A stretch of 64,000 nt of DNA, from the NCBI GenBank assembly GCA_944989445.1, contig CALYLW010000178.1:656165-720164 (forward strand), written 5' to 3'. Position 1 is the stretch's first letter. Each line of letters begins with the position of its first letter. A model generated the notes under the pieces. It did not search any database and had not been told where the DNA came from. It saw only the letters and a list, made by a program, of their open reading frames with translations. Source of the DNA: Ampullaceana balthica (taxonomy: Eukaryota > Mollusca > Gastropoda > Lymnaeidae). This document shows positions 14,036-41,000 of this stretch, piece by piece. The translations under genes were made by a program, and so were the position numbers.

Positions 14036-17000
14036 ATGGCACGAAGTATGATGCCAGCTCAACAAAAGTTGGCAGAAAAGCTGACTATTTTGAATGATAG
14101 GGGTACAGGCATGCTGACGCGGATTTACAATATAAAAAAGGTAAGAATTATTCACTCAACCTACAACTCCATTTAATTTAATTTCATTATTTTTTTAAAT
14201 TATTTAATTTAAAAAAACTTAGGTCTTGCCTTGGTCTACATATAATTTATCCAAGTGTGTACTATATTTACATGTTCGCAATCCGTTTCGGACGCCGTTT
14301 CACAATGACGACCATGTTCATGTGATAGTAAGTGATAGCCCTCCTTACCAGACAATTAATTCAATTATTCAATTATACTGTAACTGTAACAAAGTCAAAT
14401 TATATATTATTATATGACCCCGGCGCCAAGGAATAGGGGTGCTAAAATACTAAAAATAAAATGAGGCTAACAATTAACAATCATAACAATGTCATGTTAG
14501 TTATATGGAGAGGTTGAGTTGCGTCTGAAAAATATTTATGATACAAAAAAAGTGTCATCAATGTTGATGAAATGATGAGCACAATGCATCCTCATGCTTT
14601 TTACAGTCAAATATTTTGTTGAATTATGAAATGAATGTTTGTATATTGAATGTATATTTTTATTACTATTTTCTTTAAGTTAAACTTTATGTGAGGTGTG
14701 ATGAGCCAGCGCTATACAGTTTTCATGTTATTATTATTTTGTTATTATATAAATATAATAATAGTCCATAAATGAGTTTACACTATTTTGTCACTAAATT
14801 TAGACATGCAATTGTATATTTAAATTTAAAAATTGCTTTGATGAATTTTTCATCGAAAAGAAATCTTTAAAAATGTATCATTCATTTTTTTTGGATGAAT
14901 AATTTTGTGTAAAAAAATTTTCAACAAAATATTTCATGTGTGTACTAATTGTTTTATACAATTAATAAAATGATTTCATTTTAAAATGTTTTAGATGCTT
15001 GGTAGTCCAGAGAATAAACCTTCATTTCTTAATGACAAAGCACTTCAACCAGCCATTGAGAAAGTGTTACTTAAAAAGTTTCCTCTGTATGATAGTAAAG
15101 CTAGTCAGGTTTGTTCTTTTATTGCCTATTTACACAAGTTTTAGCCCCACTTGAAATTTAACTAATTCTTCCTCTGTAAATAATTCCAAACAAATGATAC
15201 ATTCTAATTAATCAAATTTAAATGCTACAACTTTTTAGAAAATATCCTTTTTTTGTGTGTTAAAAAATATATTTTAACATACATTAGAAATATCTATCTT
15301 ATAAAAATTGTTTTTATACCTTAACTTTACAGTTTTTGTCCTTTTTTAAATCTAATGATCTCCCTAAAGCATTATGCTCATTAGCCTTTGAAAAAATGTC
15401 TTTCAGCTCACGGTGGTAAACCAGATGAAAGCAGACATTGCCAAGGGTTTGTCATTGTACTACCACACTTTTGTTGATATACTGACACTAAAGGTAATCT
15501 TTAGGATTAAGTAATGAAATAGAACGCGGGGACGCGGTGGTCGAGTGGCAGCGCACTGGACTGTCGTACCGATGGTCACGGGTTCGAATCCGTGTGAAGG
15601 CAAGGGTTTGTTCCCGGGGCCTAGGGCGTCCCTGAGTCACCCCGCTCCGAATGGGTACCTAACTACATGTATGTAGTTAGGCGGCTGGGTAATGCGTGGA
15701 ACCCACAAAGCCGTGGCATGTGAATGCTGCATCACTTGCCAACAGATCATCTGTCATGGTCTGTGGACGCAACTATCTTCTACATAGAAGGAGCGTCTGT
15801 ATAGATAAGATAATAGAAGGAAGTTGATTTTTACTAGCATTTATTAAACTTGATGTAAAGAACCTGTCTGTTTTCACCACTTCAGTGACTACTAAGTTAT
15901 TTCACTTAATTAAAGTCATTTTCCTTCAAATAAAAATGACTCTCATTTTTTTCATGATATTCATTTCATTCATGATATTCATTTTAAAATCCTACAATTT
16001 TCATAATATAGTTTAATATAAGACAGTGAATTATTATTTCCTATTTTATTTGTTTCTCTCAGGATCATATTGTTGATCTACTAACAACCATAGATGCTTG
16101 TCAGGTACAGATGGATATTGTGAGTATCACATTTTATTTATATATTGCTTTTTGCCTTGATAATTATTATCAAATTGCAAAATTTTATATACTTTTAAAT
16201 AGGAATGAAAAGCCATGTATACAGTATTAATATGTCCCTTTTTAACTGTATAAACTAAATGATGATTGGAAAACTTCTTAATTTACACATTTGTTTTATC
16301 CCAGACCTTGAACTTTGACCTTACAAAGACCTATCTGGAGCTTATTGCAACTTATGTCTCCATCATGATACTGATGTCAAAAGTAGATGATCGCAAAATT
16401 GTTCTTTCTCTCTACAATTGTGCTTTTGAATTCATGAACGGAAAGAGGTAATTTATTTAAACCACTATAAAGGCATATTTTAAAATATAAAATAAGATTC
16501 ATTTATTGTTGCAAATAAATGGAATGATCAATCACAAACAGCTATTTTACATGCAATCCATGACACTAACATTAACCTTGTACATACAACTAATTTAACA
16601 AATTGTTTAATTAAGTGTACATTAAAGTAATAGAAATTAAAATAATTAAAATTAAACAAATATTTTTGACCCTAAGAAGACAATGTTAATCCTTCAAATA
16701 AACTTGTGATGAATATCTTGTTTGATTAACAAAAATTACAACTCATTTGAATTTATCATGATTTTAAAGATTCCAAGGAAGATTTTTTTGTTTAAAATAA
16801 AAGGAAAGAAAACAATAATAGTTTTTAATAATTAACCTACTTTTTAACCCCATTAGAACAATCGCAATACATAGTTCTATAACCCAGATAAGATTCTAGA
16901 TTGTGTGTTAAATGAGATTCTTAAAAATAGTAAATACTTTTGTTTTACAAAAACTTAAATATTGATGTAATAAGTCTCCTGTGTAATAGGGGAGTCGACA

Positions 17001-20000
17001 ATGGCGTTAGCACTAATTGGGATTCTGTAACATTTTATTTCTAGTCCACATTGTCATATGAGTTATTTTTAGTCTAATATATATATATTTCCTTCAACAG
17101 TGATCCATCATACCACAGATTGGGGCAGATGTGTCTAGAATATGATCCACCAATGAAAAAACTTGCTGAAGAGTTTGTGCCACACTCAAGGGTAAGTGAA
17201 ATTTTCCACAACATTACAACATGCTATTGTCTGTCAATGTATCCACAATATTTATAATTTTAGCTCATATCTGCACTTTAAAGTTTAAAAAAAGTTTTAT
17301 TTGTATGTTTGTGACAACTTTCATATAATATCTTCATGTGACATCATCTGTTTGATTAAGTTTATACTTAAATTGATAATTCTCGTTCGGGCTGCTTTCC
17401 TCATTTCGCCTTATTTACCTTTACTCCATAACATTTTTCAGGAGTTTGTTTTTAACGCCTTGACTTTTTCTCTCTTCCAATATCGTTTGTCATCTCATTT
17501 TTCTAAAGTTATTACTGCCCTCTTCAAAATATTGTGACATTACACTTTGATTAATAACATTGATTCATAGCTGTGAAATCTATAAAAGCTAAGACACTTG
17601 TTTTTTTTTCAAATATAGTAGGTTAGTATATCCGTTATCATGGTTGGCTATTGTAATGAAATATAATCCAAAATCACTCCTTCCATTTTTCCAGCATTTA
17701 ATGCCAGCACTCATGTCCATCCACAAAGTCTATCCAATGCGCAATGTCCCTGCTGAGATGATGAGAAACCAGCAGATTCTGGCCATTCTTGCTGAGCCTG
17801 CAAAGATGTCTACTGTTCCTGTAACTGACATGGTGGGTCTCTGTCATGTTCATCTGTTGCGACAATTTAACATATAGAGCTGAATAATTTTTACCACACA
17901 AACTTAGACACGTGATGTTTTTAAGAACAGAGTACCTTTTATTTTTACTGATTTCGTTTCTGTGTCGTAAGATTTAATTTATCCTTCAATGTTTCAGATC
18001 CAGTGTGAGTACTTGTCTCTGGACGCCATGGAAAGATGGATCATCTGTAAGTGTAAAGCTTATCAACTAAACCGGGACGTTGACCGGTCTATGTCTTATA
18101 TCAATACATATTAAATTAAATTCTAACATGGAAGTACGAGGCCACAAAATCTAATAGCACTTATATAGACATAGGGATAAAAACAATTTTCTTACTCTAT
18201 TGAAAAGCATAAAGTCATAAAAATCCTTATTCATCCAAACTGGCATTCGGGTGTGGAATGGTTTGCCCGAACAAACCAGGAATACCAATAAACTATCAAC
18301 ATTCAAAACTCTATGCAAGACAAGACATAAACCATGAATAAGGGTAGGACCCAATAATCTTCTGTGTATAGAAGAAGCATTTGTAATATATAAGAAATCT
18401 AATGTTATTTTTTCTAAATTTTTGTTGTTGTTTCTTTCACTGTGAATGTGTAGTTGGCCTCATGCTGTGCTATCAGAACTTGGGAGATGCACAAGCCTGG
18501 GACCTGTGGAAGCAAGCACTCCAGGGCAGCTATATCATCACTCTGTGTCGTAATGAGGTGCTTCACACTCACAGTTACATTACTAGCTTCTTTGAGAGTC
18601 TACGGGGGTAAGTGTCACTCTGTGTCGTAATGAGGTGCTACACACTCACAGTTACATTACTAGCTTCTTTGAGAGTCTACGGGGGTAAGTGTCACTCTGT
18701 GTCGTAATGAGGTGCTTCACACTCACAGTTACATTACTAGCTTCTTTGAGAGTCTACGGGGGTAAGTGTCACTCTGTGTCGTAATGAGGTGCTTCACACT
18801 CACAGTTACATTACTAGCTTCTTTGAGAGTCTATGGGGGTAAGTGTCACTCTATGTCGTAATGAGGTGCTTCACACTCGCAGTTACTTAGCTAGCTTCTA
18901 TGAGTCTACAGGGGTAAGTAGCCAATATAATACAGCTTTAGTGCACGAGAGACAAATCAAAATCTAAAATTATTATTAGATATGACAAAGAGTCTCTTTT
19001 AATATGTATATACTAGTGTTCACCTGTCAAAAATGACGGAAGTTTTCAGCTGAAATCTATTTATTTTATAAAAAATGCACTTTTTTTAGGGCGCCTACGG
19101 CGCTGACCTTTTTCAAAAGCCCAACTAACTTGTCCTTGTTTGATAAATACGAAATATTAAACTTTCTGAAATGTACACAAAGTATTTTATAATAGGGGTT
19201 GTAGGGCACCTACGGCGCCCCCTTTGTTTTTTGATTTCATAATTAACCATCATCAAATCCTCTTTTTACATTGATCCCTTTTCCAAAATTAAAATATGAG
19301 CGAAAACAATGACCTCATTTAATATTTTTTTACAGCGCATCTTTAATTTGCACACCTTTTGATGCTTTGGTGCAGTAATTTGGTTTTCCCTGCTTTCTAA
19401 AATTAGTAGCGTCAGGACTGACAGACACTACTTGCGTGACAATTGCAAATTATATTGTTTAATTCATTTTATGAACATTCCTGCAAAGACACAATTTTGA
19501 AATTATATTTTCCCCCCCAGACACCAAAATATTTCTCAAGGGAAAAAATCAGCCATGGAATCTCACTCAGTGACAATATTGACTTAAAGATGGATTATTT
19601 AGATTATAGTACAGATAGTTTGACAACAAACTTTCAACCAAGATGATAATAACCTACAAGACTCACCACTTATGATGGAAACAAAGTTTTATGTTTTTTC
19701 TGTGCTTAAAATCATGTCTAAATCAAAACTTTGTAAACTTATAACTTTTTTTTAAAAAATGCATTCTCAGTTATTTTGACGTAAAATTTTAGGAAAACCT
19801 GATTTGTTTTTTTTTCCAGACAAAACAAGAGAGTAGCTGAACTAAAAGAATTCCAATTACAGGCTTTAACTCACTCGTAAGTAAAGATCTAATTTTAAAA
19901 TAATTCTTTAACAAAATTCTGTTCTTCAAAATTTACAATTTAAAAAAAATTAGAATTCAGAAAAAGGCTGAATATTAGCTATTTACCCTTTTTTTTGGGG

Positions 20001-23000
20001 TGATTTTTAACTTCCATGATTTAGTAATAATGAAATTAGAATAACAATAAGTTTTTTTTTATTTCCAAATAATTACTATTTCTATAAAAATATTTGTTAA
20101 CTTACTATTTTAATGTAAGTTATTAGTTTACTTCAAATTTGCCTCTAATATCCAAAACATATCCAGGAAATGAAACTGAAATGATTATTCGCTGACTATT
20201 CTTGTTATTCGTCTAGGCCTGCTTTGCACAGAGAGAGGCGCAAGTTTCTCCGTAGCACACTGAGAGACTTGACCCTTGTGTTCACAGAGGAACCAGGATT
20301 ACTGGGGCCAAAGGTGATGTGAGATGTCAATAGGCATTCTGTATGTAGGGCATTGTGATTGGGTTCAATTCAAATCAAATTTTTATCGACCAGCCCATTT
20401 CAAATTAAATTTTTTTTCTTAATCAATTAAAATTAGATGTCAAGTAAAAAAATATGTTGCTGCTTTTTTATATCCACTGTTCCAAGCATATTCTCCAGCA
20501 CAAAATAGGTCACTAAAAATTGCTGGTCTAGATTTACTGTCTTTATTCAACTTTAAGAGGGTTTTCCCTTTTCTTCCCTAGAATTTAAAAATATCTTTGT
20601 CATATTTATGGTTATGTTAGTAAACAAAAAAATTAATATCTTTGGTGTTAATGAACATATTTAATTTAAATGAAATAAAGCGCAAAATAAAGAGACTTTA
20701 TTCACTATTTTACCCGAGGCACCTAACAATGAACAGAGATATTTAAAAATAAAAAAAATTAATGTTCAGGTATTTTCTGTCACAAGTGTAGATACACACG
20801 CTACTACTATAATCACAAAATTGCAATTCTTTCTACCGAGTCTGAAAGATAACAAGTAAGCATGATACTAATGCTAATGTCACCGATAAATCAAATTTTA
20901 AATCAACTTCTTTAACCTTACGAGGCTTATAAATTTAATCCTGAGTTGTCTCACTATCACTTTGCAATTCCATCACAACCATTTACCAAAAAGAAAAACA
21001 TTGAAAGAAAAAAAACGTGGGACCACATTTTTAATAACTGTCTGAAAGTAGCTTACATTATAAAAGATTTGAACAACCCGGATGTAAACCAATGGAAGTC
21101 TCGTGAGAGTTTGAAAAATGAAAGAAGAAAGTACCAATGTCACTGTGCCAAATACAGGCACCTTTGTCCCAAAAATGCTTAAACTGATGATTTGTCGGTT
21201 GAAATAGTTGACTTATGTCATTGGCAGGCCATGTACATCTTTCAAGGCCTCTCTTTGGCACGGGATGAAGTCCTCTGGCTGCTAAGACATGTCGTAAACC
21301 CACCATCAAAGAGACACAATGTAAAGATGTCCCCTGAAGACTTTTATGACAGGTAAGTCACACACCTTGGTCTCAGGGTTTTTTGTTCATTTTGTTGTTT
21401 TAAATCTTTCCCTGAATGATTGAATCATGTTGATTACCGCAGAGAGGAATGAAGTCTGTTATATCATTGATTACCGCAGAGAGGAATGAAGTCTGTTATA
21501 TCATTATAATTTTGCTCAAATCTCAAATATTGTTTTATTTCTTTTTTCTAGACAACTGCCTGAGCTTTTATTTTACATGGAGGAGTTGAGAGGTAATGTC
21601 TCTAATTAAGACCAAAGTTCATCCCAGCTTTTCAATCGCAGTTATTTAGAGTTTTATTTTGATGTTCACTACTTTCACTTTCCATAGTAATAATTTATGT
21701 TTTAGCTTTTTTTCTAAGTAGTTATTTGACAAATTCAGTGGGACTGGAATTTCATATTTTTTACTTGCACATTAAAGTAAAAAATAAAAATAAAAACTAA
21801 CAAATTTTCATTAAAAAAAAATATCTGGGTTCTATTAGCTCAGAATGATGTAGAACACTATCATATAGTATATTATCTCTGTACATTAAAGCAAGGTAAC
21901 ACTGTATGATTGAAGTATGCTTTTGGAATTACAAAGTTCTATTTAAAAACTTTTTCCTTAAAAACTGTCGGCCTAATCTTTTACCCATATCATGTCTATT
22001 TTCCTTAATTATATGCCCTGCCCTTTGTTAAAGATTTGCAATGTTTAATTGAATGAACTGCTCGTCGCCAGGTCTGGTTAAAAAATACAATGAAGTGATA
22101 CAGCGTTACTATGTGCAATATTTGTCTGGCTATGATGCTGTTTACCTCAACCAACTCATTCAGGTACTCATTGAAACAAAATTAAGTCACTCATTTGCCT
22201 TTACCGAATGGCTTATCCCTCTTACTTCTGATCATGTATTAACCCTCTATTTTGAAAGCAATATTATAATTTTATAAGAAATGTTAAGCTTTGAAAATCT
22301 ACCATGTATCCCAAACCTATTTTCATTTATTATTTATCTAATTTTAAATAAAGAACATCTCCATGTGCCCAGAGGATGAGTCCATTATATTATCCTCATT
22401 CTACAACAGTATTGCAGCCCTCTCTGTTAGACAAGGTAAAAGTCATCTCTTTATTAAAGTTAAAGTTCTGCATGGGGAAATGTAACTATGACTCAAAGTT
22501 GTGAGGTCAGACACAAACGGAGGGTATGTCATAAATGTGGAGATGAGATGAACAACGGATGTCATTTTAAGAATTTTAAAAAAGAAATAATTAGCTAGGT
22601 CAATAAATTTCCTAAACAATAATAGGAAACCTTAGTTTTATCATAATCAGAATTTTTATTTACACATTTACTAATTCTTAAATATATATATTTTATTTTC
22701 TTACTTCTCCTCAGTTGAAAAGAATGAATTATTTGATTTTAGGGGTTTTCGTCTTGACTGGTTTAGACTTCAAGTAAGGCCCATTCAATTTCCTATTTGA
22801 ATATCATCAATGTTAAAATAAATTTCTAGCGTTCCCCTTACTTTAAATTAAATGTATGAGCTTTATATATTTTTTTAAAATTTGGTAAACAAATGAACAT
22901 TGGATTGGTATTATTGAATTAAGATTCAAAGATCAATAGCTTTTAATTAGATCAATATTCCAAAACCCTAGATACATCCTAATTTTATTATGAAGTTTCT

Positions 23001-26000
23001 GGAGAGTGCAATTTTCATTGTTTTACTATCTAAGCTCCACATCATCAATACTTCTTTATCCCAGGCTTACACAAGTGTCAGCAAAGCAGGCTTGGAACTA
23101 AAGAACCACCAGGACCTCGCCAAACACATGAACACCGTCGTGTTCCACACTAAAATGGTAGACTTCCTGGACGAGATGATCAATGAAACGGGAGATCTTT
23201 CTATTTACTGGTAAATGGCTTCAAACCTCAAGAAAGAACTTTTTTTTGGTGTTAATTTGGTTTAGATTGCTAGGGTTCCAGTAGGGCATAACCGGAAATT
23301 GCCTCGGACATTCGCCTCGGCCGAATATTACGATTTTCGGTAATATCCGGAAGTATTCGCCTCGGCAAATATTACACACGCAAATAGCTAAAAAATAAAA
23401 AAAATAAAAAATTAAAATTAAGAAAATGGAATTCAATAAATACTGAACAGCTGGCAAAGAAGACACGATAATTTCAGTAGCATTTCGCAGGTGGCGTAAC
23501 CAGTTGTTACTGGGTCATGCATAATCTAACTTTCTTTCAAAAGATGGCCATTATACTAATATACTTCCGTCCGACTGCAATGGTTGTAGAGATATATGCC
23601 ACTTACTGGCGGAAAACATTAACTTTATCAGCATTCCACAAATTAAAAATATGAATTAATTATTAAGTTATAACAAGTTAAACATTATTTAGCTATTTTA
23701 GAATTTAGATTATATGAAAACATCGAACAGTTTTGGCTTTGCACTTATGATGATGAAAGAAATGGTACTCTCCTAAGTCGCAGCTTCTACTCGGTTTGTA
23801 TCCGGATCCGGCAAATAGTACATCCAAATACTCGGACTCGGTACTCGGTGGAAATTGTCTACTCGGTTATGCCCTAGTCTCCAGCCAGAGGTACAAAAAT
23901 GAGTTAGCATCTGTTAAGAGATTGTTTATCCTTCAGCTAGAGGTAAAAAAATGATTCAACCATTTTTATTGACCTCTTAGTTTCTACACAACTCTGTTTG
24001 AGCACCAGTTCAAGCAGTGTATGGAGTTCCTGGCCCAGCATCGCTACAGCATTATCTTCCCCATGATCTGTGGCCATTTCATGAATGCCACTCACAGTCT
24101 CTGCCCTGAAGAGGTAAGCTCTAGTTTGTTAACAAAAATTGCAAGAAAAAATGAAAATAAATGCTTTATATCTACAATGCAGTATTTTATATTTTCATTT
24201 TGTTTCGGACCCTTTTCCTTCTCCATCTTTGATTAAATGCTTTTTGATTTGCTCCTAGCTACCAGCAAATTAAAAAAAATATTTTTTTTTAATAAAGCCA
24301 AATTTTTAAAAATAAAGAAATAAGAATAGAAGGAAAAATTAAACAAATTTTAAATGATATTTAAATGCACAATATTATTCAATGTGATTTAAAAGAAAAT
24401 CATGAAAAATAATGAATGCATTATTATTAACCTTATTTGAAAGAGTGTGTTTGGAATTTCATCTGAAATAACTGCTAAATATTATCTTTGATATTTATCC
24501 TTGAATATGGAAAAGTGCTTTATTATGCTTCTTCTGTCCAACATTTCCTGCTTAATCAAACACAAATTCTTAGATGCTCTTTCATAGTGCATTTGGTCAT
24601 TACCAATATAAGTTATGGGATGCTCAGAATATGTGCCAGTCATTTCCATTTTCCAAGTTCAAATAACTACACAATACACTGAAAATTACATTTCTAAATT
24701 AAAAATTTTTGTCATACTTTTTCCCCCCTCTAAAATATTGATAATTCTAATCCATTCTAAGACGATTATATTAAATCGGTTTTTTTTTAATTTCTCTTGA
24801 AAAGTTGTTCAAGTTTATAGCAGTATATTTACAACAATCAGAATTAAGGTGTACTCTGCTGAAAAGACAAAGATGCTGAATTAAGATGAAATTTTGTGTC
24901 TGTTTTCATGGCTTCCATCACTTGGCTTAAGTCTGATAAGTTTTTTCATCATAATAATTTTTTTTTCCAAACATTTGAATGATTATATATATATATATTA
25001 CAGTACATTAAATACGCCCAACCATTTATATACATATATATATATATATATATATAAATATATAACTGACAATTGCAATTCTCACGCATATGTAAAATGA
25101 CCTTGCGTCACGTGTTGCTTGTAAATCTACTATAAACAGCCTTGATGCTATCTGTCTGAACATTGTAAAACTCAGTCAGATCTCTGTACTTACTTATGTC
25201 ATGCCAAGAATGTATTACCAATGTCATCACAACCTCATTGCCACCTTCACCAATCATTGCCACCAATCAGCGCCACTCCATCGGCACCACAAGCGTCCAG
25301 TACGCCCACTGGTTTTTGCGGGAGATGTCGGAGGAGGTCAACCAAGTAATCACTTCTATTTGCGAGGAACAGTGTATGCTCAACTATAAGGTAACCACGG
25401 CGATGGCACACAAGGAAATGGGTTTTGTATTAGGTCAGATTCAGATATGTGTAAAATGTTAGTGTTGTCATTTTATTTGGTGACGTTGTTCATTGTTGGT
25501 ATCACCTCAGTAGGAAGAAGTTTTTTTAAAATTTATTCTGGTATGATCATGGTTTATTAAGGGACCAGTCAGTAAAAATTTGTCTGCTGTTTGAAAAAAA
25601 AATGTTTTGATCCTCTTTAGGGGTCATTTGGCACCCCTCAAATGTAGTGTTATGAGTTTAGAGGATTGATATTTTTAATCATTTCTCTTGCTTTATTATA
25701 ATGATGTTATTCTTTTCACAAAATACTAGTTTTAAACTTAGAAAGGCTTTTCCATGTTGCTGCTGTGTCACATGGCAGTGAGGTCGCTCGATCCGACCAT
25801 TAAGGTAGGTTAAGATGGCTGATCCTCTCAATTTCTGCATTCTTGTCATTTAGTCATTCAGACACAGTAAATGGGCTTTTTGGTAAAATATAAATATACA
25901 TTCTAATTTTATATATTTAACATATTGTTGATGGATCAAAGGTAACTTCTAAGTTAACTGTGGCTAGTTAACATTGTTGTAAACAATTCTCTTACAATCT

Positions 26001-29000
26001 CTGTCACAAATGACAGGGAATGGGTCGTGTTGACATGGAGAGTCACACTGGGGTCATTTATTACTAATTGTTTACACTAAGTCCTGAACAACCTGGTCAA
26101 TGATTTGTTAGGTATGTTTTTTTTGTTTTTTTTTGGGGGGGGGCATCTTTTTAAAGTAGTCTTTGATTAGTGTACATGTTTTGGTGTCAAGATGACCTTT
26201 GATTAGTGCACATGTTTTGGTGTCAAGATGACCTTTGATTAGTGTACATGTTTTGGTGTCAAGATGACTTCAGTAACTTTGGAACAACAATCTTATTTTT
26301 TTAATAAAATCCCTTATATTAACTTCACCGTCTTGTCTGGCGTGGTCCTGCCTGTGGAAAAACAAAAGTAAAAAACGACCCACTTCCCAGGATCCTATCG
26401 AGCTGAAATTTTTCACATTGACTTTTGTCACCTAACAATGCATTCTATCAAAATTTCAGATCGATCGAATGTACTGTAATTAAATTAATGAATTTTTAGT
26501 TTATCTCGATGTAGCATGTAAATGTTTATGCTAGTCTGTCTCGCGGTGTGTATTATATTGAACATATTTCACGTGTTGCGTATTATATTGAACATACTTC
26601 ACGCGTTTTGAACATACTTTTATAATATTTTCCCGATCTGTAAATTTTTATGCTAGTCTGTCGCGCTGTGCGCATTATATTGAACATAATCAATACTTTT
26701 AGTTATGTCTCATATATAAGGGATTTGTTTAATGGGACTGTTTGTTTTGAAGGGAAGTTGTTGGTCTGTGTGATAGAGCGTAAGAGCGTTCCAGTAAGTT
26801 CTTGGAGACTGTTGTTTTTTCTTCTCCATAAATTTTCATTAATTAAGTCTCAGATTTAAACACATCAGACCCATCAGGGTGGCTGTGACATTCTCTGATC
26901 TAAAATGTTGTTTGTGTCTGTTAAACTACATAGTTGTAGAGGAGAAATAAATCTCTCAGAAGTAATAAGCTGATGCGCTAATATAAATCAAGGCCGCTAT
27001 CTATTCCAATAAATGCAAAATCAAATCAGTATTTATTGGAGACTATCAAATAAAACATGAAATATGAGGCAAGGATCATTCTGTAATCTCTCCTGTAGTG
27101 GGGAAAGTCTTAACTCAGGAACGGTAGGTAGTTCATACTGCATGACCTTTTTTGTTACTTGCACCTTCGCCCTGTTACACCATTCTCAATGCATGATCAT
27201 CATTCATAACAATAGTTACCTTATTTGATCGCTACAAAAAATGTTGTGTGTGTCTGTCTACATTCTCTTAACACCCAAGTTCCTGAAATTAATTTTTTTT
27301 TCTTTCTTCTTAATTTAATTACTTTACATTAACCATCACCCATTCAGTCTTACATGGTTATTTTTATAAATTATTATGTAAAGATATCTTACTGTATATA
27401 TAAATGCTTACCTAATCCCTTGTATATGCTGTATTTAAAATATAGTAAATGCCTACTTTAATTTGTAGTAAAGCCTTACTCTAATTTTTTGTTAATGCTT
27501 ACTTTAATTTGTTTTAAATGCTTACCGTATTTACTCGCATATAAGCCTACATCGCATATAAGCCGACCCCCCCTCAGACTACTTCAAAATTGCCAGTTTT
27601 TGCAAAAACCAGCATATAAGCTGACCATACAACTGTCTAATTTTACTCCATATTTTTGGTTCATAGAAATTTGTTACTTTAAGGATGTAAAATGCTTACA
27701 TTTCTGTGACATACCAGTTTGTTTACCTTTTGGAATGACATAAAAATGTGCTCTGCTCTTTCCACATTATTTGCTATAATAATATCTGAACATCCGCTCA
27801 TAACTTGTTCACAACTGATGATTAACAAATTATATATTTAGAAAAAAATTATACATTTTAGTGTCTGTCCTTCTGTTTTGTTTTATGCGCATATGAGCCG
27901 ACCCCTAATTTCAGTATTGTATTTTATAGTTCTAAACTCCGCTTATATGCGAGTAAATACGGTACTTTAATTTTTATCGTATGCTTACTTTAATCCACTG
28001 CTTAATTAGGATGGTCTTTCAAATCTTAAAATCTTAAAATCTTAAAATTTACTATTTAAAAAAATTCACATTTTAATAAACTGAAAAAAAAATTAATTCC
28101 ATCTCTGGAGTCATTTTCATTTTACTTTACTTAGCTATCCAAAATTCAATTTATTGAAACCCTCCCAGAACACAACATAATAACATTGTTTAAATCGTCA
28201 TTATTTAAATAATATGAAACTCATTATTTAGTATACTATAAAAAAGAAACTTATTATGCTTTAAGATTAGTTTGTGCAATTTTGTAAGGGATTTGAGTCC
28301 TGTTTTGCTTTGTAGTATCGTTATTTGATGTGTAGCTGTAGAAGCATGTTTGGGGCAGGAGTTTTATCATTGCGTGTACTTGTGTCTCCCAATGACCCCC
28401 GCCGCCACCACTCCCAGCGGATCTCAGTCGGCAGGACAAGTGTCAAATATGCCCACTGGTTCCTGAAAGAGATGGCCGAGGAGGTCAATCAGGTCATCAC
28501 AAATATCTGTGAGGAGAGTGTGCAAATGGACCACAAGGTAGGAGCAGGTGTGATCCGTAAGGTGTGCTGCCCAATAGGTCAATGACCTCTCTGGGGTTCT
28601 GTCCAATAGGTCAATGACCTCTCTGGGGTTCTGTCCAATAGGTCAATGACCTCTCTGGGGTTCAGTCCAATAGGTCAATGGCCTCTCAGGGGTTCTGTCC
28701 AATAGGTCAATGACCTCTCAGGGGTTCTGTCCAATAGGTCAATGGCCTCTCAGGGTTACTGTCCAATAGGTCAATGACCTCTCAGGGGTACTGTCCAATA
28801 GGTCAATGTTCTGTCAGGTGTGCTGAGTCACTAAAAAAGTATGGTGAGAGTTGTTATATCTACTTGCCACCTGTGATGTATTGCATTATAACAGTTTTTA
28901 ACGCAATTTCCCATGGGAAAAATTGCGTTTATGTATTTCAAATGTCTGTAACGCTTGATCCTGCAACTCCTCCTGAACCATACCAGATAGAGGGTTCGGG

Positions 29001-32000
29001 TCTTTGAAAATATTTGAAGGAGGTCTCAAGGATGTGCAAGGGCCAAAAATATAATGAAAAGGTTTACTGGATTTCCTGGAAAATAAAAAAAAACCAACAA
29101 ATATCAGTATTGTGTCAATTTCTCACCAACCATAACTGCTATCGGGTTGAAACAAACGCCAAACAATAGCTAATAATATTTAGAACAATGTTAGAAAATG
29201 AATTTTTGAAAAATCTCTTTTCGTTCAACTCCCGTAATTTTAGCAGCAATTTGTAGATAGCAATTGTTTTGTTTACTTTCAGAATTATTGATTTGAAATT
29301 ACTTTTAATGTAATCTAGAATGATTGTTAATGGGGTTTTCCCGCTTTGTGAATGCTAATGTTAGATTGGTGCGCGGTGTGCATTATATTGACACATTATT
29401 GGTGTGATGTAGCGTGAGGGGATGTGAGTCATTTTTTATTTACTTTCAGAATTACTGATTGAAATGACTTTTAATACTCATTCGAGTTTCTATTACAGTG
29501 TACTTGTTTTTTATTATCTCAGTTTAGGTGATTCAATTTTGTTGAAAATCTTATGGTACTTCAATGGTTAAGATGATGAGCTTATAGACTTTTTTTGTGT
29601 CAAACTCTTTATAGCTATGATCTTAATGTACTTTAGTGTTAATGTCAATTGTATCTGTGATCTTAAGCCATTATAAAAATGTAATGGTAAATGTAGGATG
29701 AACAATGGTGCAGGACAAATAGAATGTTTAAAGTGTTTGTAAAAATCTTGCTCTTGTGTTATTGTTAAAAGTACGTAGCTGACTACATCAAGATATGAAA
29801 TAAAGAGAGCACAAAGAAGGGAGAGGAAATGAGAAAAGTAGTCAGGTTTGTGGAACAGAGATATTTTGTGTAGAATATATGTACGTAATTCAGAGAAAAA
29901 TTTATAAGAAACTGAACAGCTCTCCGTGCCACAATCATATCTGATAACATAACCTACAGCAATTGTATCTACCTGATGTCTGTGAGGTCCCTATCTAGCC
30001 ATCATGGCCAATAAGTAAAATCTTTCAACTGTTTTATACACTGTGCATAACATAAAATATGCTCAGGGGCCCTCCACTTTCCTGCTCAGGGGCCCTCCAT
30101 CTCTATGCTCAGGCATTCCACTAAAAACTGACGTTAGTTGGGGTAAAGTGAAGGCACACAGTCCCCTCGTATGCCTTGGTGATATAAACATGTGAACGCC
30201 TCTTCACTTGTCCCATCGGCCAACACACTGAACACCTTGATCTCTCTTCAAGATTGGATTTGTTTTCCCTTTGGTCATTACCTAACTCTAGCAACATTTT
30301 GGTAAAACTTATCTTCCTACTGAGTTGTTCATACCAAATGCCAATAAACGTAATTTGTTATTAGAAAGAAAAAAAAACAGATGTGGACAAGTGAACATAT
30401 CATATATACAGGTGACCCTCAATATTCCTTCTATTTTTATGGAGAAGTTTTTGTTTGATATTTGCCAGACATTTTGATCTTCTGCCCAACTTGAGTCGTA
30501 TGAAGGGCTGTTGAAGGATGTTACTGGTCGAGTGAATAGTTTGTAATCTGTATATTTAAATTTTTCAGTATTACATGTGATGAAAAGCTTGGTTAACATG
30601 TAATTTTAAAGCTAAGATGATTTCAAGGGGGGGGGGTGAATAATAAGGTCATTTTTAATAAATTCCCAAGTAAAAATTTAGATTTTTTGTTGTTCATCTT
30701 TCAGAAACTGATAAGACGAATATTGAGGGTCCACTGCGAAGTTATATCTAAACAGTAACGTAGTTTTTAAATTTAATTTTTTTTACTCCAAAAATTATTG
30801 TAATATTAAAAAAAATATTACTACCAATGTTCAGCCACACTGTCGTTATATGTTTGAATAGTTCCCACTGACCTGATGAGGTCCAGCCACTGTTAGTTGT
30901 GGCTGCTGACAGTGACAGTCGTCAACTTGAATTTAACCGTCATTCCTATACCACAGCTCCTCCCCAAGCACAGCGCGGCCATCATTTTGTCGCAGAGACA
31001 GAAGTCCAAGGACAAGAAAGAGAAAAAGTTTCAAGAGCCTGAAAAACCTGGACAGGAGAGTGTCAGAAAAAACAGAGAAAATTTTACTAGGTGTGGAGAC
31101 TTGTGTAGAAGCATGAAAGTCTGTCTGTTGGACAGGTGGACAGGGAAATTGTGTGTCATTTTGAATCTAAGGAAATTGTAACATGTAAACAAAAAATATT
31201 AAATTTTCCATTATGTTACAACTTACAATGCATCTCAAATAAATTGTCACAAATACAGTAAATTGAATATTATTATTTTGTTTGAAAGAATGATTTAAAA
31301 AAAAACAAATTTTGACTCATTTCAGAATGGATAAACTTCACATGGCCTTGACAGACCTTTGTTATGCCATCAATTATTGTACTGTGATTCAAGTTTGGGA
31401 CCACGGCTTTGTGCCAAGAGAATTTTTCCTTCAGCATTTAGAAACCCGGTTTAACAAGTCAGTACATTTTATACATGGGCCCATTGATTATAAAAATAAA
31501 ATAACTCCTTATAATGGCTCCTGAACATTTGTTTTTTGTAATAATTCGTTTATTTAGAAATGATAATCAATTGTTTAGTACATAACATTCAATTATTTAC
31601 TACATTACAATCAGTTATTTACTACATTACAATCACTTATTGAGTACACAACAATCAATAACAAGATGAAGTTGATGTCCACAGAGCCCTTGTGGGAATG
31701 ATGATGTACAACCCTGAAACCAATGAGATTGCCAAACCTTCAGAACTGCTCAATGGCGTACGTGCCTATATGAATGTTTTACAGAGCATTGAAAACTACG
31801 GTAAGTCAGTGTTAAAAATTACATTTGATTCCAACATATTCCTTAAATTTGTGAATTGACAAAAGAGCTTATTTTTAAATATTGTGAATGGCTTTTGAAT
31901 TTTACACTTAGTTGTTGCACTTTTCTGCAAATAAGAAAACTCATGGAAAAAGACAAACATTTAAAGGATGTTTTGGGGGATAAGTCCTCCAGTGCAGTGG

Positions 32001-35000
32001 GATAAGTCCTCCAGTGCAGTGGGATAAGTCCTCCGGTGTAGTGGGTTAAGTCCTCCAGTGCAGTGGGATAAGTCCTCCGGTGTAGTGGGGTAAGTCCTCC
32101 GGTGTAGTGGGATAAGTCCTCCGGTGTAGTGGGTTAAGTCCTCCGGTGCAGTGGGATAAGTCCTCCGGTGTAGTGGGATAAGTCCTCCAGTGCAGTGGGA
32201 TAAGTCCTCCGGTGTAGTGGGTTAAGTCCTCCAGTGCAGTGGGATAAGTCCTCCGGTGTAGTGGGATAAGTCCTCCGGTGTAGTGGGATAAGTCCTCTGG
32301 TGTAGTGGGATAAGTCCTCCGGTGTAGTGGGATAAGTCCTCTGGTGTAATGGGTTAAGTCCTCCGGTGCAGTGGGATAAGTCCTCCGGTGCAGTGGGATA
32401 AGTCCTCCGGTGTAGTGGGATAAGTCCTCTGGTGTAGTGGGATAAGTCCTCTGGTGTAGTGGGATAAGTCCTCCCATTGTGGTGGGATAAGTCCTCCGGT
32501 GTAGTGGGATAAATCCTCCGGTGTAGTGGGATAAGTCCTCCGGTGTAGTGGGATAAGTCCTTCGGTGCAGTGGGATAAGTCCTCCGGTGTAGTGGGATAA
32601 GTCCTTCGGTGCAGTGGGATAAGTCCTCCGGTGTAGTGGGATAAGTCCTCCGGTGTAGTGGGATAAGTCCTCCGGTGTAGTGGGATAAGTCCTCCGGTGT
32701 AGTGGGATAAGTCCTCCGGTGTAGTGGGATAAGTCCTCCGGTGCAGTGGGATAAGTCCTCCGGTGCAGTGGGATAAGTCCTCCGGTGTAGTGGTATAAGT
32801 CCTCCGGTGTAGTGGGATAAGTCCTCCGGTGTAGTGGTATAAGTCCTCCGGTGTAGTGGGATAAGTCCTCCGGTGTAGTGGGATAAGTCCTCCAGTGTAG
32901 TGGGATAAGTCCTCCGGTGTAGTGGGATAAGTCCTCCGGTGTAGTGGGATAAGTCCTCCGGTGTAGTGGGATAAGTCCTCCGGTGTAGTGGGATAAGTCC
33001 TCCGGTGTAGTGGGATAAGTCCTTTGTTGATTTATTATCTTTGAAATGTCTACTAGCCTCCACCCACCTCATCCATGTAACCAGAACAGCAGAGAAAGTC
33101 ACATAGATCACATTTTGATCAAATGTCACATAGATCACATTTCAACCAAAACGTCACATAGATCACATTTTGACCAAATATCCCATCTATCACATTTTGA
33201 TCTAAATTCTCATAGATCACATTTTGATCAAATGTCACATAGATCACATCTTGACCAAATGTTACATAGATCACATGTTGATCAAAAGTCACATATATCA
33301 CATTTTGACCAAAAGTCACATAGATCACATTTTCACCAAAAGTCACAGATCACATTTTGACCAAAAGTCACATAGATCACATTTTGACAAAAAAATCACA
33401 TTGATCACATTTTGATAAAAAGTCACATAGATCACATTTTGACCAAATGTCACATAGATCACATTTTGACCCATACATGTGATGGTAAAGGCCCCTCAAT
33501 AGAGCCTATGTCTTCAGTTTCCTGTACTTTTGGGCAAGTCCTAAAATGGCTCCTTGAACATGGCTCAGTCCCAATGGGATGGGCTTGATTGAACATGGCT
33601 CAGTCCCAATGGGATGGGCTTGATTGAACATGGCTCAGTCCCAATGGGATGGGCTTGATTGAACATGGCTCAGTCCCAATGGGATGGGCTTGATTGAACA
33701 TGGCTCAGTCCCAATGGGATGGGCTTGATTGAACATGGCTCAGTCCCAATGGGATGGGCTTGATTGAACATGGCTCAGTCCCAATGGGATGGGCTTGATT
33801 GAACATGGCTCAGTCCCAATGGGATGGGCTTGATTGAACATGGCTCAGTCCCAATGGGATGGGCTTGATTGAACATGGCTCAGTCCCAATGGGATGGGCT
33901 TGATTGAACATGGCTCAGTCCCAATGGGATGGGCTTGATTGAACATGGCTCAGTCCCAATGGGATGGGCTTGATTGAACATGGCTCAGTCCCAATGGGAT
34001 GGGCTTGATTGAACATGGCTCAGTCCCAATGGGATGTGCTTGATTGAACATGGCTCAGTCCCAATGGGATGGGCTTGATTGAACATGGCTCAGTCCCAAT
34101 GGGATGGGCTTGATTGAACATGGCTCAGTCCCAATGGGATGGGCTTGATTGAACATGGCTCAGTCCCAATGGGATGGGCTTGATTGAACATGGCTCAGTC
34201 CCAATGGGATGGGCTTGATTGAACATGGCTCAGTCCCAATGGGATGGGCTTGATTGAACATGGCTCAGTCCCAATGGGATGGGCTTGATTGAACATGGCT
34301 CAGTCCCAATGGGATGGGCTTGATTGAACATGGCTCAGTCCCAATGGGATGGGCTTGATTGAACATGGCTCAGTCCCAATGGGATGGGCTTGATTGAAGC
34401 TGTCAATGAGTAGATCACATAGATATTTTATTTCAACTGAAACCAATGATTGAGGTGATGAGAATAATCTGTTAGTGTCAAGGTCAGCCAGTGGGTTATA
34501 ATGATTCTTTAAGAGCTTTGTTTCTGTCATCACACTGGGATGGTGGCAGGTGAGAACGAAGTTCGTTGGACCCTCATTTTTGTGTCAGTGAGATTTGAAT
34601 GCATAGTTAGGTGCGCCAACTCGTTTGGGAGCCAAAGTTAGGGTGAAAACTGCAGTGAATCATTTCATTTGCCTGACAAAGGCAACATGGTCTAAGGCAG
34701 TGCTTCTCAATTATTTTCTGTCATGCAGGAAGAAGAAAAAAATTTGCGCCCCCCGCACGACTGTAAATAGTATCATTGGTCTATAAAATTGTTATAAGTA
34801 CACCTCTACCGAGGTCAAACGAGCCCCCATTTAGCTAGCCTCGCAAGCCCCACTATTTGAGAAGCACAGGTCTAAGGCGTTAGGATAAAAGGTCTGCAGC
34901 CTTGACATAACTAAGGTGATAATTAATTAAAATAAAAGGTATTTTTGTCACAAGGTATTGATAGGATGTCATAGTTTATGAATATAAGAAAACAATATGT

Positions 35001-38000
35001 GTTCAGTTATTGAGATGCACCATGTGCCAGTCACACTGCGTGTTCTGAATGTTTTATTAAGAGAAGAGTCTCATAAAATGAAATATCTCCATGCTATTCA
35101 CAGTTCACATAGACATCGTGCGTGTGTTCAACAATGTGCTTCCCATGCAGACACAACCCACAGATGCCAACGGAGAGAAGACAATCACACACAACTACAC
35201 TCATTGGTAGGTTTCTCAGCACAGATGGCGGGGAGGGTTTTAGTTATCTTTAGGTATTGTTGATACCAAATAATGAATGCATTGTTTTACCCCCAGGTAT
35301 CTTGACGTACTGTTGATACCAAATAATGAATGCCTTGTTTTACCCCATCTATCTTGAGGTAATGTTGATACCAAATAATGAATGCCTTGTTTTACCCCAG
35401 GTATCTTGAGGTAATGTTGATACCAAATAATGAATACCTTGTTTTATACCAGGTATCTTGAGGTACTGTTGATACCAAATAATGAATACCTTGTTTTATA
35501 CCAGGTATCTTGAGGTAATGTTGATACCAAATAATGAATGCCTTGTTTTATACCAGGTATCTTGAGGTAATGTTGATACCAAATAATGAATGCCTTGTTT
35601 TATACCAGGTATCTTGAGGTAATGTTGATACCAAATAATGAATGCCTTGTTTTATACCAGGTATCTTGAGGTACTGTTGATACCAAATAATGAATGCCTT
35701 GTTTTATACCAGGTATCTTGAGGTAATGTTGATACCAAATAATGAATACCTTGTTTTATACCAGGTATCTTGAGGTAATGTTGATACCAAATAATGAATG
35801 CCTTGTTTTATACCAGGTATCTTGAGGTACTGTTGATACCAAATAATGAATGCCTTGTTTTATACCAGGTATCTTGAGGTACTGTTGATACCAAATAATG
35901 AATGCCTTGTTTTATACCAGGTATCTTGAGGTACTGCTGATGAGGGTAGCGTGCAATGCAGGTCAGATAGTATTCTCACCCAGCAGAAAAGCCTTTGTAA
36001 CAGTCTCCCAGGGAGATGGAGTTCTCATGGCAGCTGAGGAGTACGCTGATCTGACAGGTGTGTGTGTGTGGAGGGGGGGGGGTAGATGTAATTAAAAAGT
36101 AACTAATTTAAACTTGACAAGTGGAATGAATATTATAATGTAATTAATTTGAACTTGACAAGTGGAATGAATATTATAGTGTAATTAATTTGAACTTGAC
36201 AAGTGGAATGAATATTATAATGTAATTAATTTGAACTTGACAAGTGGAATGAATATTATAATGTAATTAATTTGAACTTGACAAGTGGAATGAATATTTC
36301 AATGTAATTAATTTGAACTTGACTAGGGCTATGAATATTACAGTGTAATTAATTTGAACTTGATAAGTGCTATGAATATTACAATGTAATTAATTTGAAC
36401 TTGACCAGTGGAATGACCGGACAAATCTGAAACAATTTCTGGGTTGACCGCCTTTAAATTAAACAAAAAACTAGTCACATTCTCATCTTCATTTCTTTAA
36501 TGTCACCAGAACTTCGTGCCCTGGCAGAGCTGATAGGCCCTTACGGCATGAAGTACCTCGGGGAGAGACTCATGTTAAACATTGCTGGACAAGTAGATGA
36601 AATCAAGGTGGGTCTGCGAATTCATTTCAAGACATCGAATGTTGACCTGATGAATGGGAAAGATTTATTGTTTGCATATTCCACTTTGGCTTACAAACAT
36701 GAGTTTAGTCTTTGATCAGGGAAGTGGCATCTTTAGTTTGTGCTTTGAATGAGATGTTGTTTTAACATAGTCTTTGATCAGGGAAGTGGCATCTTTAGTT
36801 TGTGCTTTGAATGGGATGTTGTTTTAACATAGTCTTTGATCAAGGAAGTGGCACCTTCAGTTTTGTGTTTTGAATGGGATGTTGTTTTAGTATAGTCTTT
36901 GATCAGGGAAGTGGCATCTTTAGTTTATGCTTTGAATGGGATGTTGTTTTAACATAGTCTTTGATCAGGGAAGTTGCATCTTTAGATTGTGCTTTGAATG
37001 GGATGTTTTAACATAGGAAAAATGTTTCAGATAATTGTTAGAAAGTTCACTTAGAGTTTTGTCGTCAGACTTCAATTTCATTCTTTTTTTTAAAAATCAT
37101 TTGATATTAAAATTATCTTAGTATTTGCAGAGCAGGCCTTATTTCTCTAGAACAACGTTGGCCAAACTGCCAACCCCCAAACCACATGCAGCTCTTTTAT
37201 GTTCATATTCTGGCCTGTGAAACAATTTATGAAAAGAAAAGTTATTGTTTGATATATATCATATAAAAAATAAATGAAAGTTTTTTTTTAAATCTTGACC
37301 CAACACAATGGGTTGAAAATAATGTGGGCTTCATTTAAATTTGAAAAGTTTGAGGTAGCGATTGGTTCCTGAATGATTGCAGATAACGAGAATACAAAAT
37401 TTCAAAGGAGTGAATAGGGCTTTTCTACTAGAATTGAGCGAGGACTGTGCATTTATCGATAAAGACAGTAAGCGAATTGGCATCATATGCCAAACACTGC
37501 TAGCAAATGACAAAGCTAGCAATATTAAGCGACACAATGAAAAAGTCATGAAGAATTTGCATCATCATATCCACTTCCATCTGAATTAAGAAAAAAAATT
37601 AAGCTTGCTGAATGTTTCAGCTGTAGACACTACTTTCTGTTTTCAGCAAAGAAGGTTACACTTCAACTGAGGCAAGCTATCGCATTGCTTGGAATATTTT
37701 TCGTGCTAAATGACCATACTCTGATGGGGAGTTTAAAATGAAGAAAATCAAGGATTAATTTCAACATTAGATCCAAATAATTCCATACTTTGGCAGCTGA
37801 TAACACACAGTGCTTCAATGTGGCTCTCAACACACATTTTATTTTTATAATGGCTCTCAGTTAGTACGAGTCTAGCCACCCCTGCTCTAGAATATCTGTG
37901 ATGTAACTCTGCCCATTGGTCTCTAACACTGCCAATTGGTCTCTAACTCTGCCCATTGGTCTCTAACTCTGCCCATTAGTCTCTAACACTGCCCATTGGT

Positions 38001-41000
38001 CTCTAACACTGCCAATTGGTCTCTAACTCTGCCCATTGGTCTCTAAAACTGCCCATTGGTCTCTAACACTGCCCATTGGTCTCTAACTCTGCCCATTGGT
38101 CTCTAACTGTTCCCATTGGTCTCTAACACTGCCCATTGGTCTCTAACTCTGCCCATTGGTCTCTAACTCTGCCCATTGGTCTCTAACTCTGCCCATTGGT
38201 CTCTAACTCTGCCCATTGGTCTCTAACACTGCCCATTGGTCTCTAACTCTGCCCATTGGTCTCTAACACTGCCCATTGGTCTCTAACTCTGCCCATTGGT
38301 CTCTAACTCTGCCCATTGGTCTCTAACTCTGCCCATTGGTCTCTAACACTGCCCATTGGTCTCTAACTCTGCCCATTGGTCTCTAACACTGCCCATTGGT
38401 CTCTAACTCTGCCCATCGGTCTCTAACACTGCCCATTGGTCTCTAACACTGCCCATTGGTCTCTAACTCTGCCCATTGGTCTCTAACTCTGCCCATTGGT
38501 CTCTAACTCTGCCCATCGGTCTCTAACTCTGCCCATTGGTCTCTAACTCTGCCCATTGGTCTCTAACTCTGCCCATCGGTCTCTAACACTGCCCATTGGT
38601 CTCTAACACTGCCCATTGGTCTCTAACTCTGCCCATTGGTCTCTAACTCTGCCCATTGGTCTCTAACTCTGCCCATTGGTCTCTAAAACTGCCCATTGGT
38701 ATCTAAAACTGCCCATTGGTCTCTAAAACTGCCCATTGGTCTCTAAAACTGCCCATTGGTCTCTAAAACTGCCCATTGGTCTCTAACTCTGCCCATTGGT
38801 CTCTAACACTGCCCATTGGTCTCTAACTCTGCCCATTGGTCTCTAACTCTGCCCATTGGTCTCTAACACTGCCCATTGGTCTCTAACACTGCCCATTGGT
38901 CTCTAACACTGCCCATTGGTCTCTAACTCTGCCCATTGGTCTCTAACACTGCCCATTGGTCTCTAACACTGCCCATTGGTCTCTAACTCTGCCCATTGGT
39001 CTCTAACTCTGCCCATTGGTCTCTAACACTGCCCATTGGTCTCTAACACTGCCCATTGGTCTCTAACAGAAGCTGGTTGTGGCCAACAAGGACACCCTTG
39101 TACAGCTGAGGAGCAGCTTTGACAAGCCAGACGTCATGAGCAACCTGACGCGCAAACTAATGAGTGAGTACAACGCCACCTGGCGGCTAAGCCTTCTTCT
39201 CTAATGTTCTCATAGTCATTAAGACTCGTACAATTTTAGGCACTTAAGTTTTAAGAAAGTATAATTTTTTTAATTGCCCATTTAAGATCATATTTAATTG
39301 GCTCCTAAAATGTGGATTATTTAATTCAAAAAGTCATCGTTTATCTGTTCAGATGTTCCATAAATGAGCTTGTATTCAGACTGTCTTTTTGTTTTCTACA
39401 TTCTAACATATATTTGACCAATCATCTGAAACCAGCAGACAAGTCATTTAAATCCAATAGACCTTGAACAAAGCTAAATTTCCCCCTCCTCTCTTCCATC
39501 AAGTGTACTGGAATGTTTGTCAAACTGAATAACTTTAACTCAACACTGGCATGTTTTACCAACTTCTTTCTACAAATGGGGATCTTTGTTCCATAAAGCT
39601 GCTTCCCTAAATGTCCCTTTGTTGGCTTCCCTAGTCCATAGTAGGCATGACATGATAAAACTGGTTGCTCTCTCAGCTCCCAAGTAGTCATGTATTGTGG
39701 TGTTGCTGACTAACTTTGTCTGACATGCCTGATTGCCAGTCAAAATAATGGAATGAAAGGACATTGGTTGTTTTGTCAACATGTGCAGGGCCGGATTTAG
39801 ACTTGATGGGGGGCCCTAAGCTATTTGAGATGTTGGGGGCCCTTTTGAAGTCGTGATATTCTATGCCAGTGCCAATTACCAAGAAAAAAAATTCCGGGGG
39901 GGGGGCAAGAAGGCGGGGGCCCTAAGCTATTAGCTTGTTTAGCAAATAGGTGAATCCAGCACTGAACATGTGTAATTTCTCACTTGTACCACTGCATTGA
40001 TGAGTTGGCTTGTTTGTATCAGTCTATCAACCGTTCAAGCATAAATTTATAAGGACTAATAATTGGGTTGCATAATAATAAGACCCATGACTCACACCCA
40101 ACAATTGGTTCAATGAACATAATAATAAGACCCATGACTCACACCCAACAATTGGTTCAATGAACATAATAATAAGACCCATGACTCACACCCAACAATT
40201 GGTTCAATGAACATAATAATAAGACCCATGACTCACACCCAACAATTGGTTCAATGAACATAATAGTAAGACCCATGACTCACACCCAACAATTGGTTCA
40301 ATGAACATAATAGTAAGACCCATGACTCACACCCAACAATTGGTTCAATGAACATAATAGTAAGACCCATGACTCACACCCAACAATTGGTTCAATGAAC
40401 ATAATAGTAAGACCCATGACTCACACCCAACAATTGGTTCAATGAACATAATAGTAAGACCCATGACTCACACCCAACAATTGGTTCAATGAACATAATA
40501 GTAAGACCCATGACTCACACCCAACAATTGGTTCAATGAACATAATAGTAAGACCCATTACTCACACCCAACAATTGGTTCAATGAACATAATAATAAGA
40601 CCCATGACTCACACCCAACAATTGGTTCAATGAACATAATAATAAGACCCATGACTCACACCCAACAATTGGTTCAATGAATTGAATGAACAAAATTTAA
40701 TTTGATTATAATCAACTTAAAAGAAGAAATTCCCCACCCCTGCTGTAGAGTTGTAGTAGTAAACACTACACTACTGTGTCCTTTATTGAACATTACACTA
40801 CTGCACATAGTGTGTGTCCTTTATTGAACATTACACTACTGCATATAATGTGTGTCCTTTATTGAACATTACACTACTGCACATAATGTGTGTCCTTTAT
40901 TGAACATTACACTACTGCACATAATGTGTGTCCTTTATTGAACATTACACTACTGCATATAATGTGTGTCCTTTATTGAACATTACACTACTGCACATAA

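Follow-up and report, generated by a model that had tools for sequence, protein, structure and literature searches.

NCKAP1, or Hem, is a core subunit of the WAVE regulatory complex, and serves as a scaffold controlling actin growth. Here we describe a Hem/NCKAP1 gene of the gastropod Ampullaceana balthica in which exon 19 is present in two homologous versions, 19a and 19b, lying in series. The gene was found in a stretch of 64,000 nucleotides (hereafter the window) on contig CALYLW010000178.1 (C178) of a 1.097 Gb assembly. Muscle myosin heavy chain, a different gene, reportedly has exon clusters larger than the snail pair. The likeness lies in the clusters of mutually exclusive exons in metazoan muscle myosin heavy chain genes, and the full text of that paper names both Biomphalaria and Aplysia (PMC3912159). 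Tandem duplicated exon substitution events have been surveyed in human genes, where most of them are described as ancient and as fine-tuning function (Genome Biol Evol 2022, PMC9741552). The snail pair resembles those events in that homologous exons are adjacent and the isoforms would be identical save for one homologous region; 19a and 19b are of equal length and phase and have their own splice sites, as that class requires. It differs in that the surveyed events are human, the main text containing no occurrence of NCKAP1, in that exclusivity of the snail exons is plausible only, and in having a neighbouring gene copy with one version only. Judged from sequence, 19a/19b would be a further case of this known class. 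Within the Hem family, a zebrafish nckap1l variant likewise involves alternative splicing of a WAVE scaffold, with a phenotype, but the passages of that report describe no duplicated exon (PMC8032155). No report of homologous alternative exons in NCKAP1/Hem was found in the open-access literature, judged mostly by titles and the starts of abstracts, nor any report there of a duplicate of the exon 19 segment in human NCKAP1.

The plus-strand gene assembled from the spliced alignment (Table 1) encodes 1126 amino acids with 19a and, equally, 1126 with 19b. The a-form is identical to the annotated Lymnaea stagnalis protein P0003 at 1112/1126 residues without a gap, and P0003 bears PF09735.15, which places the gene in the Hem/NCKAP1 family. 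The original prediction had described two exons of 120 nucleotides, both of phase 0/0, with 27/40 residues identical in ungapped alignment and with an AG and a GT of their own; all of this was confirmed, and spliced alignment to the 33-exon gene confirmed their serial placement between exons 18 and 20. The variation was said to be concentrated at the N-terminus and in the last ten residues, and the 13 differences (segment positions 2, 4, 6, 10, 17, 20, 29 and 34-39) indeed number four among the ten leading residues and six among the last ten. At the DNA level 79/120 nucleotides are identical, with 27/40, 33/40 and 19/40 at the first, second and third codon positions, respectively; 14 of the 40 codons are identical, 13 differ synonymously and 13 non-synonymously. 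Third-position identity well below that of the second position points to a long-standing pattern of protein-level constraint. Synonymous sites are saturated (dS undefined by NG86 and 31 by maximum likelihood), and therefore no dN/dS ratio is claimed.

When 19a was used as query against the whole assembly, only three sites were obtained at E <= 0.001: the query exon, 19b with an E of 2.1e-12, and exon 19 in a paralogue nearby, so that the match between 19a and 19b is far beyond chance. The 150-nucleotide flanks showed no similarity above shuffled sequence (scores of 17 upstream and 16 downstream against maxima of 23 and 21 in 30 shuffles each). Since 13 of the 27 shared residues are encoded by different codons and the flanks are dissimilar, the duplication must be old and is not an assembly artefact. 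Chance or artefact was ruled out as the origin of 19b by the E value, the dissimilar flanks and the b-type exons of other species. A permissive tblastn scan between exons 18 and 20 revealed no credible third copy; the same scan covered the introns of the paralogue, and its best hit (E 0.056) lay on the opposite strand. The pair is a genuine tandem exon duplication of heterobranch gastropods in a WAVE scaffold.

Relatives were examined for the version of exon 19 that they carry. The first protein search returned 1253 relatives, of which 120 were listed; the segment could be read by script in 114 and the other six were read by eye (P0059, a paralogue, b-like; P0061 and P0069, a-type; P0082, P0106 and P0118, arthropod-like type). 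The protein database keeps one representative per 90% identity cluster, which hides isoforms differing by 40 residues. A b-type segment was present in 4/114 readable proteins, all from heterobranch gastropods: Biomphalaria pfeifferi (P0005), Bradybaena (P0006), Aplysia (P0007) and Elysia (P0008). The last three are predicted proteins having b without a, and any a-forms of theirs would be hidden by the clustering. A search with the b exon was insensitive, giving four candidates and missing three b-type proteins already found by the first search. It provided P0123, a sequence of 669 amino acids that has b only, placed directly between exons 18 and 20, and that matches 19b of the window at 32/40 residues. 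Among four sequences compared, P0123 is closest to Aplysia (610/667 identical). It carries the source label 'merc', and MERC is a set described as metatranscriptomic; should the label refer to that set, P0123 would be RNA evidence for the 18-b and b-20 joins. In all, four of the five other b-bearing sequences have b without a (P0006, P0007, P0008 and P0123), and each version is found singly, a in P0003 and in Physella P0004, b in the apparently metatranscriptome-derived P0123 and the three predicted proteins.

The search for the second exon in other gastropods and bivalves, proposed earlier, was thus rewarded in Biomphalaria, Bradybaena, Aplysia, Elysia and P0123 and not among the listed bivalves. 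No b was seen among the caenogastropods, vetigastropods, limpets or bivalves of the 120 listed proteins, where 90% clusters could hide isoforms, and 19b appears so far to be limited to heterobranch gastropods. Window 19a agrees with the Haliotis segment at 38/40 residues and with Biomphalaria a at 40/40, whereas b against b in the latter comparison gives 25/40. It would seem that 19a is the old, nearly invariant version and that 19b evolves faster. Among the listed proteins the segment falls into two types, one in most lophotrochozoans and another in the named arthropods and two hemichordates (RHH.xxRSLSxVNxFLDEM...), and it is nearly frozen inside each. Three Crassostrea virginica proteins (P0060, P0062 and P0070) have a deviant segment (RRSIRNTSFQYAKWFLQEMSDKINQVITDICEEQ... 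in P0060), possibly from a separate gene copy or an exon duplication.

Exon 19 corresponds to residues 588-627 of human NCKAP1, to which 19a is identical at 17/40 positions and 19b at 13/40. The snail protein shares the fold of human NCKAP1 in the WAVE regulatory complex (3p8c, 4n78, 7usc, 7usd, 7use) over nearly the whole length. The predicted model of Aplysia P0007, which has b only, superimposed on the human chain 3p8c_B with a root-mean-square deviation of 1.5 over 1085 residues, and b alone makes the helix in this model with the human fold kept. We checked whether differences at positions 2-33 avoid the hydrophobic face of the helix. Window b leans away from it without significance (p 0.30); p values were 0.31 for Aplysia, 0.56 for P0123, 0.050 for Biomphalaria, 0.043 for Bradybaena and 0.047 for the window paralogue, which is no more than a hint. 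Ferritin matches were set aside as chance helix similarity. No Arf1 site on Nap1 turned up in the literature passages and the listing searched for one.

The explanation we favour, with a probability of about 0.72, is that 19a and 19b are tandem duplicates kept as alternatives, giving two forms of Hem/NCKAP1. The spliceosome would place either 19a or 19b between exons 18 and 20, yielding two scaffolds of 1126 residues. These would differ at 13/40 residues within a single long helix, with six of the changes in the stretch where it runs into a poorly ordered loop. Each form is expected to be built into the WAVE regulatory complex, the differences adjusting a surface or the anchor of that loop and leaving the fold as it is. 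Alternative use of the two exons in A. balthica is likely, and a functional difference between the forms may follow. Should the two exons be alternatives, a part of the scaffold that hardly varies can be exchanged in a gastropod group to which the laboratory snails Lymnaea, Aplysia and Biomphalaria belong.

A possible basis for the choice lies in the splice sites. The acceptor tracts of 19a and 19b (-23 to -4) are the two most T-poor among the 33 acceptors of the gene (Table 1), the next lowest T content being 0.25, and the 60 nucleotides upstream contain 21 C for 19a and 22 C for 19b, the top two of 33, with 20 next. The acceptor of the paralogue's exon 19 is without a C-rich tract (T 0.30, C 0.20). 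Such acceptors suggest that U2AF binds weakly and that some other factor is needed; they are the most suggestive splicing clue at the locus and may make both acceptors regulator-dependent. By a simple uncalibrated splice matrix the acceptors of 19a and 19b ranked 6 and 20 from the weakest of 33, and the donors (GTAACC and GTAGGA for the pair) ranked 18 and 23. A 32-bp minisatellite of 7.8 copies (28560..28808, plus strand) begins 22 nucleotides downstream of 19b, and its units bear GGTCAATGACC, which is self-complementary save for the middle base.

The original prediction took the pair to be mutually exclusive exons. A tandem duplication kept as alternatives agrees well with b in five other sequences, four of them without a, but mutual exclusion as such is a plausible reading only, and no feature of the sequence was apparent that would plainly enforce it. 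Several observations count against the explanation we favour or against its strict form. Versions a and b within one gene were seen directly only in the window and in P0005, a predicted isoform (X3) in which a is followed by b in series and in frame; it is the only protein with both segments among the 114 readable of 120 listed, and this one prediction tells against strict exclusion. The annotated proteins of L. stagnalis and Physella have a alone. The Elysia segment has a different start and is loosely b-like, being as b at 6/13 sites, as a at 2 and neither at 5. The T-poor, C-rich acceptor pattern was spotted post hoc and in one species. All four combinations of the exons stay open (1126 amino acids with 19a, 1126 with 19b, 1166 with both and 1086 with neither), so that reading frame or nonsense-mediated decay would not enforce exclusion, joint inclusion and skipping both being in frame. 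With 3,027 bp between 19a and 19b, a short intron would not enforce it either; this spacing and the ordinary GT-AG sites mean that there is no physical bar to a 19a-19b join. Both exons being GT-AG, no mix of U2 and U12 sites was apparent, no dedicated scan for U12 branch points having been made. Competing RNA pairing is a mechanism of Dscam-like exclusion. In this one genome the best duplex beat the best of only 8 single-base shuffles at 2/6 sites, both at 19a (acceptor, -42.1 against -38.5; donor, -40.2 against -39.3), and did not do so at the acceptor or donor of 19b, the donor of exon 18 or the acceptor of exon 20.

The claim that one gene gives two WAVE scaffolds is supported as far as two NCKAP1 forms and a b-alone model with the human fold are concerned, but it leaves out a second NCKAP1-family gene with a single b-like exon 19. 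This gene, placed head to head with the first on the minus strand, had been overlooked. Traced through the window and the neighbouring 40 kb to position 639687 of C178, this paralogue has 34 exons, no internal stop and a product of 1142 amino acids, identical to that of the plus-strand gene at 727/1125 residues. About 5 kb separates the first coding exons of the two genes, and each of the 46 matches reported for P0003 across the assembly falls in one or other of them (41/63 first-look candidates scored). Its relatives are L. stagnalis P0125, Physella P0059, Bulinus P0126 and Biomphalaria glabrata P0127, each having one exon 19 segment. In the tree these and the window paralogue form one group with support of 100, adjoining the Hem proteins of heterobranchs, which themselves hold together with support of 78. 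More unusual than the exon pair alone is its combination with a gene copy that has only one, b-like exon 19, and this offers a direct case for asking how splicing alternatives and gene duplicates come to replace one another.

The best reading of the paralogue's exon would be that the b version became fixed in that copy, the chief reservation being long-branch attraction. The exon is as b at 8/13 diagnostic sites and as a at 2/13, and in the 40-residue tree the b exons and two of the five paralogues compared were grouped with an ultrafast bootstrap of 100. The segments RISIGQTSLKY... (L. stagnalis), RVSIGKTSLKY... (Bulinus) and RMSIGNTSLKY... (B. glabrata) are b-like as compared by eye only. 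With a single b-like exon, the choice would be fixed in the copy of the Lymnaea, Physella, Bulinus and Biomphalaria line. A permissive scan of paralogue introns 18 and 19 gave no credible relic of 19a (the best hit being that already mentioned). The b-like exon may instead not be inherited from 19b, having come about by lost constraint with convergence or long-branch attraction, or 19b may have been copied from the paralogue; we consider this unlikely, though it deserves weight. The Physella paralogue is ambiguous (3/13 sites as a, 3/13 as b, 7/13 neither), the paralogues evolve fast and lie on long branches, a tree of 40 residues is weak, and a tree placing the gene duplication inside the pond-snail group was not rejected by the approximately unbiased (AU) test (p 0.207). 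Copying from the paralogue is spoken against by the b-type exons of Aplysia and Elysia, for which no paralogue turned up among the 120 matches listed in each of two protein searches. Going further, a splice switch on the WAVE scaffold may have arisen in heterobranchs, with the gene copy of the Lymnaea/Physella/Bulinus/Biomphalaria line keeping the newer exon only, so that a single animal would obtain the b-like version in two ways, through splicing and from the second gene; differing at the helix end beside a poorly ordered loop, the versions would differ in how they recruit a partner or let it go, with neurons or haemocytes as possible sites. This fuller scenario is tentative, and we put it somewhat short of an even chance.

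Alternative use must also be weighed against 19b being an optional cassette after 19a, whereby the helix would always be made from 19a and 19b would lengthen the poorly ordered linker. The in-frame series in P0005 fits this, and in its predicted model a makes the helix (553-596) while b (596-635) has low values of the predicted local distance difference test (pLDDT; 46, 34, 39, 32 and 27 by block), as if the insert were tolerated. The low confidence of b is partly expected because rows with both segments are rare in that alignment, and P0005 is only a gene prediction. Moreover, b is joined directly to exons 18 and 20 in P0006, P0007, P0008 and P0123, and 19b keeps the helix residues, with Aplysia b predicted to fold there alone, which would be needless for a linker insert; we therefore think the cassette improbable. 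That 19b is a decaying duplicate, spliced rarely or never in the window species, would suit the use of a in P0003 and P0004 and the faster divergence of b, but is very hard to credit given an open frame, two intact splice sites, the agreement with P0123 and matrix scores exceeding those of 19a at both ends.

Table 1. Positions of the two NCKAP1-family genes and of the exon 19 region, counted from the first nucleotide of the window
Feature	Position	Strand	Remarks
Second NCKAP1-family gene, first nine exons	775..9064	-	Head to head with the plus-strand gene; continues beyond the window start
Hem/NCKAP1 gene	14036..56797	+	33 coding exons in either single-exon-19 form; spliced protein-to-DNA alignment
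Exon 18	23981..24113	+	Ends ...CPEE, phase 0
19a acceptor tract	25248..25267	+	T-poor, C/A-rich; T 0.20, second lowest of 33 acceptors
Exon 19a	25271..25390	+	120 nt, phase 0/0, AG before and GT after; type of most listed lophotrochozoan relatives
19b acceptor tract	28395..28414	+	T-poor, C-rich; T 0.05, lowest of 33 acceptors
Exon 19b	28418..28537	+	120 nt, phase 0/0, AG before and GT after; b-type relatives in other heterobranchs
Exon 20	30957..31090	+	Starts LLPKH..., phase 0; leads into a stretch of lower model confidence

Elsewhere in the plus-strand gene, a 77-bp tandem array of five copies (window 18538-18919) repeats the 3' part of exon 9 together with the donor GTAAGT of that exon. 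GTAAGT stays in register in three later copies, so that repeated 5' splice sites stand in series; use of any of these would lead to a stop at residue 314. By their motifs, two open frames, 59499-60623 and 54296-54814, appear to resemble a non-LTR (long terminal repeat) retrotransposon reverse transcriptase; they have related ends, and the latter lies inside the intron preceding exon 32.

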